Shown here in pieces: positions 12,930 to 22,255 of a stretch of DNA of 64,000 bases. The first letter of the stretch is position 1; every line of letters starts with the position of its first letter. Source of the DNA: Campylobacterales bacterium (lineage in GTDB: Bacteria; Campylobacterota; Campylobacteria; Campylobacterales; Sulfurospirillaceae). The position numbers and the translations under genes are program-made. The notes below the pieces were generated by a model. That model worked only from the letters and a program-made list of their open reading frames with translations. It had not been told where the DNA came from and did no database searches. Location: contig JAFGFU010000025.1 of the NCBI GenBank assembly GCA_016930915.1, positions 1 through 64,000 on the forward strand. Reading direction: 5' to 3'.

Positions 12930-13613
12930 ATGAAGATAAGAACTAATGCATGTATTTTTTGTGGACATACAAAACTCTATGAAGTTTCTTCATCTCAGTC
13001 TCGTTGTGCTATGTGCAAACGAACATTTAGCCACATTAAATATGCCAAAAAAATAGAAGTACTAAAATGTTTTCTTGCCGATAAAAGTGCACACGAATGT
13101 GCAATGCATTTGAGTTTAAACTATTTGACAGTTTCTAAAATATATCACACACTACGCTTATTGCTCATAGAATATTTAGAGTCACTCTATACCAAACACT
13201 CTCAAACATTTTCACAGTACGATGAATACTATTTTCTTCCTACATGTAAAAAGAAAAAAACAAAGTATCTTTTCGATGCCATTGGTATTTTAGCCATACT
13301 TTATGACACGCATGTCTACACACTACTACTTCCAGACCAATTTGCACACTTGCGAGACCTTGAAGAAGATGCCATAGAGAAAGAAACGTACGCTCGTTTT
13401 TTACATCAGCATAAAGTTGCCCATTATGAAAGTTTTCATACGCCCATCAATCGTTTTTGGATTTTTTTGGAAACGTGGATGGAACATTTTAAAGGAATAA
13501 AAAGAGAAAAATTTATCTACTATCTTAAAGAAGCCGAGTTTAAATTTAATTACACACCAGAAGCACAACGCTCCATTTTAGAAGCGTTGTGGCAAAAAAA
13601 TCTTTACATGTAA
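12930..13613 (+). CDS. IS1595/IS1016-type transposase-like protein, probably domesticated
   Basis: 227 residues. A zinc ribbon opens the protein (CIFCGH near residue 8 and CAMCKRTF near residue 27), then a helix-turn-helix-like stretch (KSAHECAMHLSLNYLTVSKIY), then a reduced DDE-like region: YDEYYFLP near residue 98, and a C-terminal INRFWIFLETWMEHFKGI...FIYYLKEAEFKFN block that strongly resembles IS1595-family transposases. In those enzymes the block usually contains an ENFW or similar acidic residue; here the site reads INRFW, so the third catalytic acid seems lost. No terminal inverted repeats or target duplication are seen. It lies alone on plus between hypB and nikR, so a regulatory DNA-binding role in the hydrogenase region is possible but unproven. 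Confidence 0.65.
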   Translation: MKIRTNACIFCGHTKLYEVSSSQSRCAMCKRTFSHIKYAKKIEVLKCFLADKSAHECAMHLSLNYLTVSKIYHTLRLLLIEYLESLYTKHSQTFSQYDEYYFLPTCKKKKTKYLFDAIGILAILYDTHVYTLLLPDQFAHLRDLEEDAIEKETYARFLHQHKVAHYESFHTPINRFWIFLETWMEHFKGIKREKFIYYLKEAEFKFNYTPEAQRSILEALWQKNLYM

Positions 13614-14115: not shown

Positions 14116-16332
14116 CTAATGTGTACTTTTTTGTAACACTTTATAGAGTTGTCCAGCACAAACTCCTCCATCATTAATGGCAACCTGATGCGGAAAATAG
14201 AGTGTTTCGTTACTTTTATTCATCAGTTGCTCTAATAATGTGCGGTTTTGAAACACACCACCTGCTATAACTTTTTTCTGAGAATACTTTGAAGAGACTT
14301 CAAAGAAGATATAGACCAAAGTATTGAGAAATTTTGAAGCAATTAACGAAGGCTCTTTATCCTCTAACATTTGGAGGAACATTGGCTTATAGAGAATTTT
14401 TTTATCTTCAAAATGAACCGTATAATGTTCTTGAATACGCTCATCATACAAACTCTCCAATAGTAAACCGCTCTCTCCATCATAACTAATACGCTCATGC
14501 ATACCACATAAAACGGCTACAGCATCAAAAAGTCTACCTACAGAAGAGCATAATGGACTATTTATTTTTTTGGTATAAACCTGTTTGAGTCTTTTAAGTG
14601 ATGACTCATCAAAATAATTACACAACACAGCATCGGCATCAGTCCCTAAAACATCCCATAGAAGTGACGCTAAAATGCGTTTGGTATCTTTAATACTTGC
14701 ATCGCCACCTAAGAGTAAAAATGGCTCAAAATAGGCCACACGCTCATAGGTATCTGTGTTACACAGTAAAAATTCACCGCCCCAAATTGTACCATCATCT
14801 CCATAACCCGTCCCATCCCATGCAATACCTAACACCGTTTCATCTAATGCGTATTCACACATAACAGAGAGAATATGAGCATAATGGTGTTGCACAAATA
14901 CACACGGAATGGTCTGTTTTTTTGCCCATTGTGTTGAAAAATAATAAGGATGCATATCCGCAACAATGAGTTCAGGTTCAAAATCATAAAATTCTTTGAA
15001 GCGCTCTAGCATTGCTTCAAAAAGCTCACACGAGGCTATCGTATCTAAATCACCAATATACGGACTGATAATCATTTGATGGTTCAAATAAATTGCAATG
15101 GCATTTTTTTGGTGCGCACCCACACAAAGGATATTTCGATCATCTGTGCTCTTAAGACGAAAACTTTGTGGTGCCATGCCCCGTGATGAACGCATCACAA
15201 TGCGTTTATTTTCCACATACTGAAGCACACTATCATCACTCGAGTTAACAATGTCTCGGTTGTAATCTAAATAATAGTCCACGACATGACTCAGTTTATT
15301 TACCAGAGTTTTTGCTTCATAAATAATAGGCTCACCCGAGAGATTCGCACTGGTTGCTACAATAGGTTTTTTGAGGTACTCAAACAAAATAACATGTAAA
15401 GGTGTGTAAGGTAAGAAAACCCCTAACCTATCAAGTTTTGGAGCTACATTGGGGGCAATCAGTCTGCTCTTCTTATTTTGCTTCACCAAAACAATAGGAC
15501 GCAAAAGAGAGCAAATACCCTCTTTTTCATGATGCGTAAGTTCACACACCTCTTCAATGGCATCTAAATTTTTAAACATCACAGCAAAGGGCTTTGAAGG
15601 TCTTTTTTTTCGCTCTCGCAAACGTTCTACCACAGCAGCATTGCTTGCATCGCATACTAAGTGAAAACCACCCATACCTTTCATGGCAACAATATTTCCC
15701 GAACGAATTAATGCAGCCAAATGTTGCAAGGCTTGCTCATCAGTTGCAATAACTTTCCCTGAGATAGAGCGTAAAAAGAGTGTAGGCCCACACGTTGAAC
15801 AACTAATGGGTTGTGCATGGTAACGTCTATCAAGAGGATTGGTATATTCACTCTGACACGCATCACACATCACAAAAGGAGCCATAGAGGTATTGGGTCT
15901 ATCGTAAGGAACCGTTTTAATAATAGAGTAGCGAGGACCACAGTTGGTACAATTGATAAAAAAATAGTGATACCGTCGATTATGTGGGTCATGCAGTTCT
16001 TTTAAACAATCATCACATAAAGACATATCGGGCAAAACCAAAGAAGACTTATTTTTTCCTTCTTCACTATGATGAATTTCAAAGTGCTTATCATTTTTAC
16101 ATGTAAGCGCTTCTTTGGAGAAAAAATCAATACGAGCCAATGGAGGAAGTTCTCTAAACAAAGCCAATTCAAATGACTCTAAGCTCTCTTTAGAACCTTC
16201 AACCTCAATATTCACACCTTTTTCATTATTTAAAACAAAACCACTTAAGGCATGACGCAGGGCTAAGGCATAGACAAAAGGGCGAAAACCAACCCCTTGT
16301 ACCATACCTTCAATACAATAAAGCAAACGCAT
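14116..16332 (-). CDS. hypF: Carbamoyltransferase HypF
   Basis: Makes the carbamoyl group used by HypE from carbamoyl phosphate and ATP. Domains in order: acylphosphatase (GMVQGVGFRPFVY near residue 9), two zinc fingers (CDDC...CTNCGP, CDAC...CSTCGP, about residues 105-190), YrdC-like domain (RKKRPSKPFAVM, ATSANLSGEP) and a Kae1-like carbamoyltransferase domain (HHYAH near residue 483, WDGTGYGDDG, AGGVFQNRTL). The 738 residues are typical. I choose the ATG at 16332 (MRLLYCIEG), one base after the hydE stop, over a TTG at 16344. It is translated right after hydE. Confidence 0.95.
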   Translation of the reverse strand: MRLLYCIEGMVQGVGFRPFVYALALRHALSGFVLNNEKGVNIEVEGSKESLESFELALFRELPPLARIDFFSKEALTCKNDKHFEIHHSEEGKNKSSLVLPDMSLCDDCLKELHDPHNRRYHYFFINCTNCGPRYSIIKTVPYDRPNTSMAPFVMCDACQSEYTNPLDRRYHAQPISCSTCGPTLFLRSISGKVIATDEQALQHLAALIRSGNIVAMKGMGGFHLVCDASNAAVVERLRERKKRPSKPFAVMFKNLDAIEEVCELTHHEKEGICSLLRPIVLVKQNKKSRLIAPNVAPKLDRLGVFLPYTPLHVILFEYLKKPIVATSANLSGEPIIYEAKTLVNKLSHVVDYYLDYNRDIVNSSDDSVLQYVENKRIVMRSSRGMAPQSFRLKSTDDRNILCVGAHQKNAIAIYLNHQMIISPYIGDLDTIASCELFEAMLERFKEFYDFEPELIVADMHPYYFSTQWAKKQTIPCVFVQHHYAHILSVMCEYALDETVLGIAWDGTGYGDDGTIWGGEFLLCNTDTYERVAYFEPFLLLGGDASIKDTKRILASLLWDVLGTDADAVLCNYFDESSLKRLKQVYTKKINSPLCSSVGRLFDAVAVLCGMHERISYDGESGLLLESLYDERIQEHYTVHFEDKKILYKPMFLQMLEDKEPSLIASKFLNTLVYIFFEVSSKYSQKKVIAGGVFQNRTLLEQLMNKSNETLYFPHQVAINDGGVCAGQLYKVLQKSTH

Positions 16333-16333
16333 G

Positions 16334-17998
16334 TTACTGATCAATGGGCAATTCCCGATTAAAACAAATCGTATGATTAGGTTTTAGATTTTTACAAACC
16401 ATTTCACTTAAGCGTTTATACCCCAAGAAAGCGCCTCCTAATGCAATATTTTTTGCAGATAAATTTTCACGATGTGCATCAGCAGTATCGGTAATAAAAT
16501 ACGCTAAACTTTCCATATAACCAAAACTGAGTGTATTATCATCCGTACCTGCAAGTTTATAACTTATACCACTGCGTACAAATCTGACATAATCAAAATC
16601 AGCACTCAGCGCATCCTCTTTTTCAAGATAATAATCAATACGAGGGCCTTTCTCACCACCATAATCTTCTGCATTTTCAATCAATTGCTCTGCAGCACCC
16701 TCAAATGTCTTACTTAAGCCCAAAACAACAGAAACGATTGCCCATAAAGTATAAATATTTTTAGGAACATCTTGAGGAATTGGTGTATTGATTGCACACG
16801 TATAAACATGCGCAAACTGCTCTTTATAATTTTGAATTAAACGTCTAGCACTTTCACCACTTTGCTCAATCCGCGCAAACAATTCCGCAAATGAAACAGG
16901 CACAGGAAAGCTTACTAGATTTAACATTCCATGTTCTTTAGAATAGTGCATAATACGATCATCATGCATTTTACTCAAATAAAAACACGTTGATTCAAGA
17001 TCAAAAAGCTGGTGTTCTTGCATTAAAGAAACAAAAGAGGCATGCGAAGGTTCATCAAATTTTTTTAAACTCTCTTTGAGTTCTTTTGACGCGTAATGGG
17101 TACCATTTAAAAGTAAAATAGTTCCATTTTCAAGAACACTAACACGCAAAGGTTCACTGTTGCCTTCAACACTTTCTGCGATAACGCAATACTTTGTTTT
17201 ACATGTAGGAGTAGCTGTTCTAAAAAGAAAGAAAACACCTTTTTCAAAAAGTTTTTTACAAAGCTGATACAACAACAAATCATCAAACAAGCGCATAAAA
17301 ACTCGTTTTTGCTCTAAAATACCTTTTTGCTCATACAAAGCATTCACTTTAAAACGAATCGCAGGACGCTCTAATGAAGCCAATGCCTTCATCTCATTTT
17401 CTTGACACACTACCATTCGTTCAACCACGCTCAAATCTGTGGCAATTACCTCGAAATCATTAACATGCTGAGCATTTTCTATTTTTCCAATACTATAAGA
17501 ACTATTACGTGTTTGAATCGTAATGATTTCACCCCCTGCTATCAGGGTAGCTACACGTTCATACATATTTTCATAGTCTAAAGTATTCTTTACATGTAAA
17601 AGCTCTTGATCATTTTCAAAAAGGGATGTAGAACTGTTTTCAAGGGGCTGGGTAAAAGGGAAAAGATACATTTTTGAATCTGCATTATCAACCAAAGCCA
17701 ACTGCTTAGGTGTAAAAGTAATAGGTGCAACCATAAGGGGCAATACTTCTTCATCCAAAGGAAAATCTTCAACCACTTCCACACTCGAAGATTTAAAAAA
17801 AATGGATAAAGGAAGCGATGTCGAGAGATAATCCGCAAAAGCACCTAAACGACTCTCTTCATCATCAACATAAAGGGTCACAATAGAATCTTTACGAAGA
17901 ATTTTATGTGTTATGTTAAAATCAACGGCAATTTCTTTAAGCAAACTCTCTAAAACACCATTTTTTGAAACATAATTAAAATTAAAGGCTAAAATCAT
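16334..17998 (-). CDS. hydE: HydE-type hydrogenase operon protein, HypF-like but degenerate
   Basis: 555 residues; function unknown. It occupies the place of hydE in Wolinella/Helicobacter-type hydABCDE operons. By eye it follows HypF along its length: an N-terminal acylphosphatase-sized segment (VTLYVDDEESRLGAF...), a segment YERVATLIAGGEIITI like the start of the HypF YrdC domain, RPAIRFKV like RPSKPFAV, and a C-terminus IALGGAFLGYKRLSEM like HypF AGGVFQNRTLLEQL. It lacks the zinc-finger cysteines and the HxxxH metal motif of HypF. The ATG at 17998 overlaps the hydD stop as ATGA; the frame extends 5 codons further up. A scaffold or chaperone role is inference. Confidence 0.7.
   Translation of the reverse strand: MILAFNFNYVSKNGVLESLLKEIAVDFNITHKILRKDSIVTLYVDDEESRLGAFADYLSTSLPLSIFFKSSSVEVVEDFPLDEEVLPLMVAPITFTPKQLALVDNADSKMYLFPFTQPLENSSTSLFENDQELLHVKNTLDYENMYERVATLIAGGEIITIQTRNSSYSIGKIENAQHVNDFEVIATDLSVVERMVVCQENEMKALASLERPAIRFKVNALYEQKGILEQKRVFMRLFDDLLLYQLCKKLFEKGVFFLFRTATPTCKTKYCVIAESVEGNSEPLRVSVLENGTILLLNGTHYASKELKESLKKFDEPSHASFVSLMQEHQLFDLESTCFYLSKMHDDRIMHYSKEHGMLNLVSFPVPVSFAELFARIEQSGESARRLIQNYKEQFAHVYTCAINTPIPQDVPKNIYTLWAIVSVVLGLSKTFEGAAEQLIENAEDYGGEKGPRIDYYLEKEDALSADFDYVRFVRSGISYKLAGTDDNTLSFGYMESLAYFITDTADAHRENLSAKNIALGGAFLGYKRLSEMVCKNLKPNHTICFNRELPIDQ
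17589..17600. repeat. TTTACATGTAAA palindrome, copy 6
   Basis: Inside hydE, read as LHVK. No further exact copy occurs until 24879. Confidence 0.95.
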
Positions 17999-18534
17999 CG
18001 CTCCTCCAAACAAGATACATCAGCGACACTTTGAATGTCAATCTCTTTTACTTGCTGATACGAAAATCCCAATTCATTTAAATGCTTGAGCAATGTTGCT
18101 TCCATAATTTCACTGCCTTTTAAAACAGCTGGCGTCATTTTAAGCGTTGTATCATCAATAACTTGGGGAATTATACCTACAATTTTTGTGGGAGGACGGT
18201 CTCCTACAAGATCCATCATGGAAAGCGTTTGAAGCATCTCAACCTCATGTACACTCCCTTGCCATGTAATAGAACTTGGAACATTTTCAAAATCAAAGAA
18301 GTAAACATCTCCTATTTTTCCATCGCGTGCATCAACACAATCAAGAACAATAAGGTAGTCATATTCAGCAATAATGGGAATTAATCTCTCAGCAAGCGTA
18401 CCACCATCAATAAAGGTAAGGGTATGTTCATCTGAAGAAAACGCATACTTTTGTTCAACAAGGCGGCAAAGATGAACTCCGACACCCTCGTCGGAGAACA
18501 TCACATTGCCAATGCCTAAAACCAATACTTTCAA
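17995..18534 (-). CDS. hydD: Hydrogenase maturation protease HydD
   Basis: HybD/HyaD-family endopeptidase that removes the C-terminal tail of the large subunit after nickel insertion. Family features: VLGIGNVMFSDEGVGVHL at the N-terminus with the first nickel-sensing acidic residue (SDEG), LDCVDARDG near residue 64 with the second, and SVHEVEMLQTL near residue 94 with the conserved histidine. The 179 residues fit. The start appears to be a TTG at 18534, because no ATG precedes the conserved KVLVLGIGN. It lies 12 bases after hydC and overlaps hydE as ATGA. Confidence 0.93.
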   Translation of the reverse strand: MKVLVLGIGNVMFSDEGVGVHLCRLVEQKYAFSSDEHTLTFIDGGTLAERLIPIIAEYDYLIVLDCVDARDGKIGDVYFFDFENVPSSITWQGSVHEVEMLQTLSMMDLVGDRPPTKIVGIIPQVIDDTTLKMTPAVLKGSEIMEATLLKHLNELGFSYQQVKEIDIQSVADVSCLEER

Positions 18535-18546
18535 TTCAAGGCTCTC

Positions 18547-19224
18547 TTAGTGCTTATGGTCGTTTTTAAGAAACTTATAACCACTAATAATAGAATCCAT
18601 TGCACCTTCTTTACCCATAATAGAGTTAAACATTGCTAAGTACATATGAATTGGTAAAAAGATTAAAATTCCCCACATAAAGATATGGTGAATCTGTCTT
18701 ACCATCGCCAAACCGCCCATCATCGCTTCAAGTGGACGCATATAGTCATACAAGAAAAGACCAATACCTCCACCTTGATAACAATGTACATACAAAATGA
18801 GTCCTGTTAAACACAAGACAAAAATCATCACATACAATCCTACATACGCAGCAAATTGTAATGGATTATACACACCTCTCATATGAGGATGTTCCCCCAT
18901 AAAAAGGTAATACTTGATTTGTTTAATCCATATCGTTGGACTTAAACAATCAAGAAGTGAAATCCTCTCTTTTGAACTAATTCGGTCAAAAAAGAAGAGG
19001 TAAGTTTTAAAGATTGTAATTGCAATCAATAAAAAACCAAAAATTTCATGCCACATTCTAAACTTTGCATTTAAGAATAAAATTGGCTCATCTGAAGCTT
19101 CGGGTGTAATAAAACCATAGGTAATATAAAAACCTGTAACAGTCAATACAACCATTGCAACTGCTCTTAGCCAGTGCGTCCAACGAAGGCCAGCCGAGAA
19201 TTCAAATTCCATATTTCTTTTCAT
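18547..19224 (-). CDS. hydC: Hydrogenase cytochrome b subunit HydC
   Basis: Membrane di-haem cytochrome b of the HyaC/HydC family that anchors HydAB and passes electrons to the quinone pool. Four to five hydrophobic segments are visible, with family histidines in GLRWTHWLRAVAM near residue 16, MWHEIFGFLLI near residue 60, VRQIHHIFMWGI near residue 180 and FLPIHMYLAMF. I place the start at the ATG at 19224, which has a strong AGAGGAG ribosome site; the longer frame would overlap hydB. Part of hydABCDE. Confidence 0.93.
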   Translation of the reverse strand: MKRNMEFEFSAGLRWTHWLRAVAMVVLTVTGFYITYGFITPEASDEPILFLNAKFRMWHEIFGFLLIAITIFKTYLFFFDRISSKERISLLDCLSPTIWIKQIKYYLFMGEHPHMRGVYNPLQFAAYVGLYVMIFVLCLTGLILYVHCYQGGGIGLFLYDYMRPLEAMMGGLAMVRQIHHIFMWGILIFLPIHMYLAMFNSIMGKEGAMDSIISGYKFLKNDHKH

Positions 19225-19244
19225 ATTAGACTCCTCTTTGGCGT

Positions 19245-20999
19245 TTAGCAAGAACAAGACCCGCCGTTAACATTCACCTTATAACTGCTCATTTCATTCC
19301 CTTTTGTATCCATAACATGTACTGCACATGCCAAACATGGGTCATAAGAGTGAACAAGCCTTACAATTTCAAGAGGTTGAGAAAGATCTGCAATTTTAAG
19401 ACCAATCAATGACTCTTCATATGAACCTCTCACGCCTTTAGCATCTTTTGGACTTGCATTCCATGTTGTAGGAACAACCGCTTGGTAATTTTCAATCACA
19501 CCATTTTTGATTTTTACCCAATGGCTAAGTGTACCACGTGGTACATGTCCAATATAACGACCTTTATACTCTTTATTCTTATCGATTTTATAACTTGCAC
19601 ATGTCGCATCATCCACTTTTAGGTTTTGAATTAACGCATTAAATGCTTCCAACCCGTAATCTGCTACAACTTTTGTTTCCAACATACGGCATGCTGTACG
19701 ACCCAGTGTTGAAGCAACAGCAGCAATTGGAAGACCTGTGTCTTTTAAGAATTTATCCACAACCGTTTTAACACGTTTATTACCCATAGCGTAGTTAACA
19801 ACGATATTTGCTAATGGACCAACTTGAAGTGGTAATCCATTATAACGTGGTGCTTTGACCCATGTATATTTGCCTTTTTCATCCACTACTTTTGTAGGCG
19901 CTAAAACACCTTTATCATTAATGGTTTGAGCATCTTTAAGCCCTGTATAGTTTGGCTCTTGACGGCCTTCATATGGATGATATGCAGCATTATCTTTGTA
20001 CCATGCATGAGTTGCTTCTTCGGTGATTTTACTCTCATCAATTTCTTGAACTTTAAACGGTTTACCACTCACAAGATTAATTACATCTGCACCCATCATG
20101 ACACCACTATTAAATAAAAACTCACTTGCACTGATTTGAAATTCTTGATGTGTCCAAAGATTTGGAACACCAAGACCTGCTGTAACACTTGGTTCTTTTG
20201 AATAAGCAAGTCCAGCCATTACAACATCAGGGTAATATGCACGATTCACAAACTCTGCCATCTCTTTGAATTTTGTCATGTATTCACCCAAACGTGAAGG
20301 TGTTTGAAGATCCATAATACATGTTACACCACCCACCGTCAAACTTTGAGGATGCGGTTGTTTTGCACCAAAAATAGCCATCATTTGAGCTGCAACACGT
20401 TGCATTTCAAGTGCTTTTAAGTAGTGAGAAACCGCAATCAAGTTTTGCTCAGGTGTTAATTTATAGGTTGGATGTCCCCAATACGCATTGGCGAATGGTC
20501 CAAGATTTCCTTTTTTCACAAACTCTGCTACTCTTTTTTGAACGACAACCAAATCATCAGCACCACATGCAATAGGCGCATCTGTGTATTTAAATGCCTC
20601 AGCAGCAGCCTTGTGCGGATCAGCTTTAAGAGCTGAAACAACATCCACCCAGTCAAGTCCATGAAGGTGATAAAAATGTACCACATGATCATGCAAGAAA
20701 AGCGCACAGTTCATTAATGTACGTGTCAATTTTGCATTAAGTGGAGGCTCAATACCTAACGCATTTTCAACAGCCATAATTCCTGCTTTATAGTGAGAAT
20801 AGGTACAAACGCCACAAATTCTTTGAACCATAAAACCTGCATCTCTTGGATCTCTACCTTTAAGGATAGTTTCAATACCTCTCCATAACGTAGAAGAAGC
20901 ATACGCTTCCGTGACTACATTGTTATCATCAACAATGACTTCAACTCTTAAATGCCCTTCAATTCTGGTAATTGGATCGACTACGATTCTTTTGCTCAT
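19245..20999 (-). CDS. hydB: [NiFe]-hydrogenase large subunit HydB
   Basis: Catalytic subunit of a group-1 membrane-bound uptake hydrogenase. The four nickel-binding cysteines are in place: RICGVCTYSH (Cys62, Cys65) and DPCLACAVH (Cys555, Cys558). The chain continues 23 residues past His561, the cleavage site for the HydD protease, so the sequence encodes an unprocessed precursor. The 584 residues are typical. It lies between hydA (15 bases) and hydC (20 bases). Confidence 0.97.
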   Translation of the reverse strand: MSKRIVVDPITRIEGHLRVEVIVDDNNVVTEAYASSTLWRGIETILKGRDPRDAGFMVQRICGVCTYSHYKAGIMAVENALGIEPPLNAKLTRTLMNCALFLHDHVVHFYHLHGLDWVDVVSALKADPHKAAAEAFKYTDAPIACGADDLVVVQKRVAEFVKKGNLGPFANAYWGHPTYKLTPEQNLIAVSHYLKALEMQRVAAQMMAIFGAKQPHPQSLTVGGVTCIMDLQTPSRLGEYMTKFKEMAEFVNRAYYPDVVMAGLAYSKEPSVTAGLGVPNLWTHQEFQISASEFLFNSGVMMGADVINLVSGKPFKVQEIDESKITEEATHAWYKDNAAYHPYEGRQEPNYTGLKDAQTINDKGVLAPTKVVDEKGKYTWVKAPRYNGLPLQVGPLANIVVNYAMGNKRVKTVVDKFLKDTGLPIAAVASTLGRTACRMLETKVVADYGLEAFNALIQNLKVDDATCASYKIDKNKEYKGRYIGHVPRGTLSHWVKIKNGVIENYQAVVPTTWNASPKDAKGVRGSYEESLIGLKIADLSQPLEIVRLVHSYDPCLACAVHVMDTKGNEMSSYKVNVNGGSCSC

Positions 21000-21014: not shown

Positions 21015-22172
21015 TTATTCTTCACTTTTTCCACTGCCCTTAACCGCAGCAATTGCTGCGTGAGCCGCGATACCTACTGCTGTCGCTGTTAAGAGTGCAA
21101 CACCTACTTTATCAGCCGTTTTATCTGCACCCTCACCATATACAGTGTGGTAGAGTCTATCACCTAATGGCTCTTCAAATGGTCCCATATTGTCCCAAAA
21201 CCCTGGCTCAGAACAGCCAATACAACCATGTCCTGCTTGAACTGGCCATGATGTATGCTGATTAAATCTTTCACGTGAACAGTTATTAAATGTATAAGGA
21301 CCTTTACAGCCTACTTTGTATAAACAAAAACCTTTTTTTGCACCTTCATCACCAAATGTCTCAACAAATTCACCTGCATCAAAGTGACCACGTCTCTCAC
21401 AAAGATCATGAATTCTAAGACCATATGCCCATTTTGGACGATTGTATGCATCAAGAGCAGGAAGTGTGCCAAAAAGAATATAATGAAGTACGTTACCAAC
21501 AATGTTTTTCTCACTTGGAGGACAACCTGGAACATTAATAACAGGTTTATTGGTAATCTTGCTCATAGGTTGTGCATTTGTAGGATTTGGATGCGCGGCC
21601 TGAATACCCCCGAAACTAGAACATGAACCAATCGCAAAAATAGCGGCAGCTGCATCAGCTGCTTTTTTAGCTGTGGTTTGACCCGTATGACCATGTGGTC
21701 CTACTGTTAAATAAAAATCACTGCTACCAGCTGGGATACCACCTTCAACCATTAAAATAAATTTGCCTTTATACTTTTCAAGAGCACTCTCTAAATTATG
21801 CTCCGCTTGCCATCCACAAGCAACCATCAATGTCTCATGATACTCTAATGAGATATGATCAAAAATCAAACTATCAATCGTAGGAGCATCTGAGCGTAGC
21901 AAACTCTCACTACAACCTGTACACTCCGCCATATGTAACCAAATAACAGGTAAACGGTCTGTTAATTCAGCAGCTTGTGCCATAAGCGGTGTAAATGTTG
22001 AAGGTAGAGATAACATGGCAGTAACGCCCGCTGCCCATTTCATAAAATCTCTACGGCTAATACCATGCTCTTCCATCAAAGCAGCAATAGACTTACCCTC
22101 TTTAATACGAGGGAACTTTTCAAGACTGCTGAGTCTATCCGCAAGTCTTTCATAAAGTTTCGCGTGTTCCAT
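21015..22172 (-). CDS. hydA: [NiFe]-hydrogenase small subunit HydA with Tat signal
   Basis: Electron-transfer subunit with three Fe-S clusters. The N-terminus has a twin-arginine motif SRRDFMKWAAG (Arg40, Arg41) followed by a hydrophobic stretch and MAQAAE, so the HydAB dimer should be exported. ECTGCSES holds the proximal cluster cysteines, and the cysteines around CERRGHFDAG, CLYKVGCKGP and CIGCSEPGFWD supply the rest. A C-terminal hydrophobic helix (VGVALLTATAVGIAAHAAIAAV) is the membrane anchor. The ATG at 22172 has an AGGAG ribosome site; 11 further in-frame codons upstream are unlikely to be translated. Confidence 0.96.
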   Translation of the reverse strand: MEHAKLYERLADRLSSLEKFPRIKEGKSIAALMEEHGISRRDFMKWAAGVTAMLSLPSTFTPLMAQAAELTDRLPVIWLHMAECTGCSESLLRSDAPTIDSLIFDHISLEYHETLMVACGWQAEHNLESALEKYKGKFILMVEGGIPAGSSDFYLTVGPHGHTGQTTAKKAADAAAAIFAIGSCSSFGGIQAAHPNPTNAQPMSKITNKPVINVPGCPPSEKNIVGNVLHYILFGTLPALDAYNRPKWAYGLRIHDLCERRGHFDAGEFVETFGDEGAKKGFCLYKVGCKGPYTFNNCSRERFNQHTSWPVQAGHGCIGCSEPGFWDNMGPFEEPLGDRLYHTVYGEGADKTADKVGVALLTATAVGIAAHAAIAAVKGSGKSEE

Positions 22173-22255
22173 ATAGTTTCTCCTGTGTAAAATTTCCAAG
22201 ATCAATTTAAACGTTCATATAGGCAAAAATATTTTACTTACATGATTATTCATTT

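Follow-up and report, generated by a model that had tools for sequence, protein, structure and literature searches.

HydE, a HypF homologue without HypF catalytic residues, as a probable maturation factor for the HydABC hydrogenase of Campylobacterota

What does HydE, encoded by the last gene of the hydABCDE operon, contribute to the hydrogenase beside which it is encoded? In the window (the whole stretch of 64,000 nucleotides of Campylobacterales DNA that was analysed), the run hydA-hydB-hydC-hydD-hydE extends from position 22205 to 16334, with hydE last and hypF directly downstream (Table 1). Near relatives of this hydE are found in Sulfurospirillum. Helicobacter pylori HydE (HP0635) is the same protein by name and by operon place (last of hydABCDE), an equation made from operon and literature. 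Passages of PMC7695850 and PMC5557546 report that hydE mutants of H. pylori have no hydrogenase activity (for which PMC7695850 cites Benoit 2004), that nickel does not restore it and that urease is normal. These passages call the function of HydE unknown, as did a preliminary description of the locus made from its sequence. That description went on to propose that HydE is a degenerate, full-length paralogue of HypF, a duplicate that became a non-catalytic partner, perhaps a chaperone for HydB or a HypF/HypE scaffold. In the excerpts seen of the open-licence literature, we found no mention of a descent link between HydE and HypF. The radical-SAM HydE, a maturase of [FeFe] hydrogenases, shares only the name; the protein described here lacks a Cx3Cx2C motif and a corresponding Pfam match, and the two are unrelated. 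Part of a study of Sulfurospirillum genomes (PMC4794192) counts HydE as an [FeFe] maturase in all eleven genomes, which may reflect a collision of names with this HydE.

Translation of hydE was taken to start at the ATG at 17998, with a TTG at 18013 as a possible alternative, and its stop codon occupies 16334–16336. As the preliminary description had noted, hydE is encoded next to hypF: it lies directly upstream, and the two open reading frames overlap by up to 11 bp. Past hydE the order is hypF, nikR, a 227-aa open reading frame on the opposite strand, hypB, hypC, hypD, hypE and hypA. The 227-aa frame (12930–13613, plus strand) is Cys-rich and without a Pfam match. Its homologues adjoin hypF or hypB in many Campylobacterales families, and one on a Sulfurimonas paralvinellae plasmid is annotated as a transposase; because it persists near hyp genes, it looks like a resident gene rather than a passing insertion.

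Compared directly by BLASTP, the HydE and HypF of the window are not significantly similar (E 0.014). We therefore rely on family profiles, built from 88 HydE and 31 HypF sequences of Campylobacterales genomes. Comparison of the two profiles by hhalign gave a local E value of 3.7e-26 and a collinear path that joins HydE 16–553 to HypF 20–724; a second profile comparison, also collinear, gave 1.3e-26. The HydE profile also matched the solved HypF structure 3vth (E 2.7e-27). Only profiles reach HypF: phmmer of HydE against the PDB and hmmscan against NCBIfam returned no match, the window HydE did not match the TIGR00143 equivalog model (cut-off 466.1 bits), and the single relevant Pfam match of HydE alone, to HypF_C_2 (the second Kae1 subdomain), fell under the curated cut-off (E 2.5e-5). 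A scan of viral contigs for further sequences found none.

We also cut HydE into five segments and compared each with HypF by hhalign, using reversed profiles and a HydB profile as controls. All five matched the corresponding HypF domain, segment 311–410 weakly, whereas reversed profiles gave E values of at least 0.13 and the unrelated HydB profile 0.12. The HypF order of acylphosphatase, zinc-finger, YrdC and Kae1 parts is thus collinear in HydE, as remnants (Table 1). Family profiles, which the two window sequences alone could not replace, show that HydE is a homologue of HypF, and its description as a degenerate one is borne out by these controlled comparisons, by the matches to solved HypF and by the finger-bearing intermediates described below. 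The term "full-length" holds in that homology runs along the whole chain, but HydE lacks the greater part of the first Kae1 subdomain (HypF about 393–485). Three of the four segment pairings proposed earlier stand in the profile alignment, namely the acylphosphatase-like N terminus, LIAGGEIITI with LIRSGNIVAM, and ALGGAFLGYKRLSEM with AGGVFQNRTLLEQL. The fourth, RPAIRFKV with RPSKPFAV, was mistaken: RPAIRFKV (HydE 211–218) aligns with RPIVLVKQ (HypF 282–289), and RPSKPFAV aligns with HydE about 177–184.

Table 1. Genes of the hydABCDE–hypF region of the window and segments and motifs of HydE
Feature	Position	Strand	Description and evidence
hydA	21015..22205	-	Small subunit; the sequence has a twin-arginine type signal (SRRDFMKWA)
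hydB	19245..20999	-	NiFe large subunit; open reading frame
hydC	18547..19257	-	Cytochrome b anchor, present in the HydE-associated hydrogenase type; open reading frame and gene order
hydD	17995..18534	-	Hydrogenase maturation protease; Pfam HycI E 1.9e-27
hydE	16334..17998	-	554-aa HypF-derived protein without HypF catalytic residues or zinc-finger cysteines
HydE 1–84	17747..17998	-	Acylphosphatase-like remnant; hhalign against HypF acylphosphatase E 1.5e-8, reversed controls 0.14–0.23
HydE 85–135	17594..17746	-	Remnant of one HypF zinc finger; hhalign against finger region E 5.2e-7
HydE 136–310	17069..17593	-	Shortened YrdC-like domain, active-site residues gone; hhalign against HypF YrdC E 6.9e-15
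HydE 311–410	16769..17068	-	Start of the Kae1-like part, at the HHYAH position; weak hhalign match, E 7.5e-4
HydE 411–554	16337..16768	-	Second Kae1 subdomain; HypF_C_2 match under cut-off, hhalign E 3.1e-9
KGPRIDYYL motif	16625..16651	-	HydE-specific, conserved; 98% of HydE rows have G451 and D455
RSGISYKLAGTDD motif	16538..16576	-	HydE-specific, conserved; 98% of HydE rows have S479
hypF	14116..16344	-	Intact carbamoyltransferase homologue; Pfam domains, TIGR00143 808 bits against a cut-off of 466

The residues on which HypF catalysis depends are gone from HydE. In the acylphosphatase part, HypF R21 aligns with Glu and N39 with Arg or Lys. K246, R248 and the ATSAN motif of YrdC either fall in deletions of HydE or have no aligned counterpart there, and the same is mostly true of its long class (below). 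Of the Kae1 residues, H486, H490, D463, D510 and D725 of HypF are not conserved, and the HHYAH position reads PSHASF. HypF carries two CxxC-CxxC zinc fingers; the family of the window protein has none of their cysteines, and residues 85–135 of the window protein contain no Cys, whereas the family alignment retains Cys there in other families. HydE therefore shares with HypF (TIGR00143; PDB 3vth, 4g9i and 3tsp) the domain order and domain-by-domain profile matches, and differs from it in lacking the catalytic residues, most of the first Kae1 subdomain and, in the window protein, the fingers. It also scores far under the HypF cut-off and is tied to one hydrogenase type, whereas HypF serves all.

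Relatives of HydE form a graded series with eight, four or no zinc-finger cysteines. At one end is a class of about 640 residues, HydE-long, in which all 18 members have the eight finger cysteines, spaced as in HypF, a Pfam zf-HYPF match and a TIGR00143 hypF match that lies far below cut-off (in one example, 82.9 bits against 466.1). The HydE-long profile matched 3vth with an E value of 3.1e-36. Examples are WP_193112083.1 (Sulfurimonas paralvinellae) and WP_229937523.1 (Sulfurovum mangrovi), both annotated as hypothetical. Like HydE, this class has lost R21 and N39 and, of the Kae1 residues, H486, H490, D463 and D725; two thirds of its members retain D510. Other HydE families have a single HypF-type finger, with a pattern like FCPxCL...YYNPFxxCExCG, and the window's family and several others have no finger cysteines. 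The earlier statement that the zinc-finger cysteines and the HxxxH motif are gone is accordingly correct for the window protein, whereas in many HydE relatives four or all eight of the cysteines persist. Repeated loss of the finger implies that it cannot be essential.

HydE and HydE-long form one clade (SH-aLRT 100). HydE most likely arose through a duplication of hypF. When the tree was rooted against outgroup HypF, the HydE branch measured 2.17 changes per column and was placed beside Butyrivibrio HypF, which is likely to be a long-branch effect. An origin of HydE within Campylobacterales was neither shown nor rejected (p 0.63, in a tree with a very long HydE branch).

We then considered which partner HydE accompanies. 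Among the loci read, hydE forms part of the hydABC operons and follows hydD, or hydC if hydD has been relocated. Among 120 near-complete genomes, HydB and HydE occurred together in 90, and HydB seemingly without HydE in nine. Eight of these nine were read (all but G162). In five of them (G060, G077, G104, G172 and G185), a hydE that is divergent, split or truncated lies next to hydABC, below threshold or at a contig end; the other three (G054, G150 and G161) have only a HydB type that lacks hydC and is without hydE. Such hydC-less HydB relatives have no hydE alongside, although hypF is present in the genome or operon. This suggests that HypF is sufficient there and that HydE serves the cytochrome b-anchored type specifically. 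In G150, G161, G109 and G139, the partner of the hydC-less HydB is a small subunit of about 805 aa, and the one scanned (G139) is a flavoprotein fusion with Pyr_redox_2 and BFD domains.

Several further observations came from the same loci. NiFe small subunits of about 805 aa, with HydB and without hydC or an adjoining hydE, are encoded at L170 (7674–10094), L172, L173 (3606–6014) and L177; that of L170 has an N-terminal pyridine nucleotide-disulphide oxidoreductase and a BFD [2Fe-2S] domain. A 99% complete draft (G047, locus L088) has hydABCDE and no detectable hypF, through either an assembly gap or real absence, and some drafts of family f16 also have HydE without HypF. At L178 (8968–10724, genus g23), hydE occupies two overlapping frames (337 and 262 aa), reflecting a sequencing error or a real frameshift. 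Several genomes of family f9 (L053, L081 and L082) have open reading frames of about 620–640 aa between hydE and hypF.

As HydE accompanies HydC as well as HydB, its client could be the anchor or an export step. HydE might then act late, on finished HydAB, through quality control, Tat export or attachment to HydC at the membrane, rather than in cofactor insertion. Its occurrence with HydC-containing hydrogenases and absence beside HydC-less relatives fit this reading, as do passages in PMC4992972 and a table in PMC7695850 in which HydE, with HydD, is said to direct the complex to its place in the membrane. However, those statements, as excerpted, give no mechanism, and HydD is by family a protease (HycI). 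HydE also has no membrane segment (maximum 19-residue hydropathy 1.42), and its homology to HypF and the presence of hydE in hyp clusters (L073 and L099) point to cytoplasmic maturation. We consider a late role unlikely, although it is the leading alternative.

The relation of HydE to HydB is closer than its relation to HypF. There is one hydE per hydABC operon, and genomes with doubled operons have two HydE and a single HypF; in these cases (L043–L047, L049, L053, L101/L055 and G184) each operon has its own divergent hydE. Trees and patristic distances for a co-phylogeny set of 64 pairs revealed a deep 20|44 split common to HydB (SH-aLRT 100) and HydE (99.6), whereas the same labels required nine changes on the HypF tree. 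Patristic distances of HydE correlated with those of HydB at r 0.85 and with those of HypF at r 0.55, and the partial correlations were 0.88 for HydE–HydB given HypF and 0.65 for HydE–HypF with HydB removed; shared species history confounds such mirror-tree correlations, which are indications and not proof. HydE thus has the properties of a client-specific factor, with one gene per cognate operon that co-diverges with the large subunit, and the co-phylogeny makes HydB its likely client.

These patterns also bear on a second alternative, in which HydE is a pseudoenzyme subunit or regulator of HypF–HypE that raises cyanide supply when HydABC is made. In most loci hydE adjoins hypF, directly upstream, and in genus g28 (L073) it sits with hypF-B-C-D-E-A, away from hydAB. 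The partial HydE–HypF correlation is in keeping with such modulation, and a fold derived from HypF could take part in mixed assemblies. Nevertheless, HydE follows HydB far more closely than it follows HypF, and two HydE proteins share one HypF in double-operon genomes. There is also no hydE in G150 and G161, where hypF accompanies only the other hydrogenase type, indicating that HypF works without it. Modulation of HypF therefore seems quite improbable to us.

Although degenerate, hydE is maintained. Its dN/dS against near relatives is about 0.18–0.23, similar to that of HypF (0.15), and a value of about 0.2 indicates that it is no pseudogene. HydE has acquired fixed residues of its own (S65, F67, D455, S479, E496 and S497), where HypF has others; in the D455 column, HypF never has Asp and has Glu instead. 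These gained residues and the purifying selection could mean that HydE acts, in a way not yet recognised, as an enzyme on another substrate. We judge this very improbable, given that HydE has lost the catalytic residues of the acylphosphatase, YrdC and Kae1 parts as well as the greater part of the first Kae1 subdomain, and that its newly conserved residues might just as well form a binding surface. That purifying selection acts on a protein without the HypF catalytic residues instead supports a non-catalytic role, in agreement with the earlier proposal of a HypF derivative turned non-catalytic.

Taken together, we favour, with moderate confidence, a model in which HydE is a catalytically dead HypF homologue dedicated to the maturation of HydABC, the periplasmic, cytochrome b-anchored hydrogenases of Campylobacterota, probably acting as an assembly helper and not as an enzyme. 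Both roles proposed earlier, a chaperone for HydB or a HypF/HypE scaffold, would be compatible with HydE tracking HydB and with hydE lying beside hypF or in hyp clusters. The inherited HypF-like surface may dock HydE on the proteins that build the cofactor, in the first place HypE, or else HypCD–HypE. HypE is the first candidate partner because HypF binds HypE stably and does not so bind the HypCDE complex, according to part of PMC12134894. The conserved C-terminal patch that is HydE's own (KGPRID...RSxMSFKLAG...ES) would hold the cognate pre-HydB, and Fe(CN)2CO and nickel would thereby reach the cognate large subunit ahead of its cleavage by HydD and its export. More tentatively, this pseudoenzyme copy of HypF may be a hydrogenase-specific loading platform that replaces HypF on HypE/HypCD and helps to pass Fe(CN)2CO to one large subunit, a client-specific step so far seen only in Campylobacterota. 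The logic would be that of HoxV/HupK, as described in part of PMC12134894, in which a relative from the hydrogenase machinery is reused as an operon-specific maturation factor, except that HoxV/HupK resemble the large subunit whereas HydE resembles HypF.

Helicobacter and its relatives live on hydrogen by means of a hydrogenase that requires HydE. Its HypF ancestry leads to the predictions that HydE should bind HypE, HypCD or HydB and should have no turnover of its own. The series of eight, four and no cysteines would represent steps from an enzyme of the hydrogenase machinery to a non-catalytic partner, with the intermediates still living.
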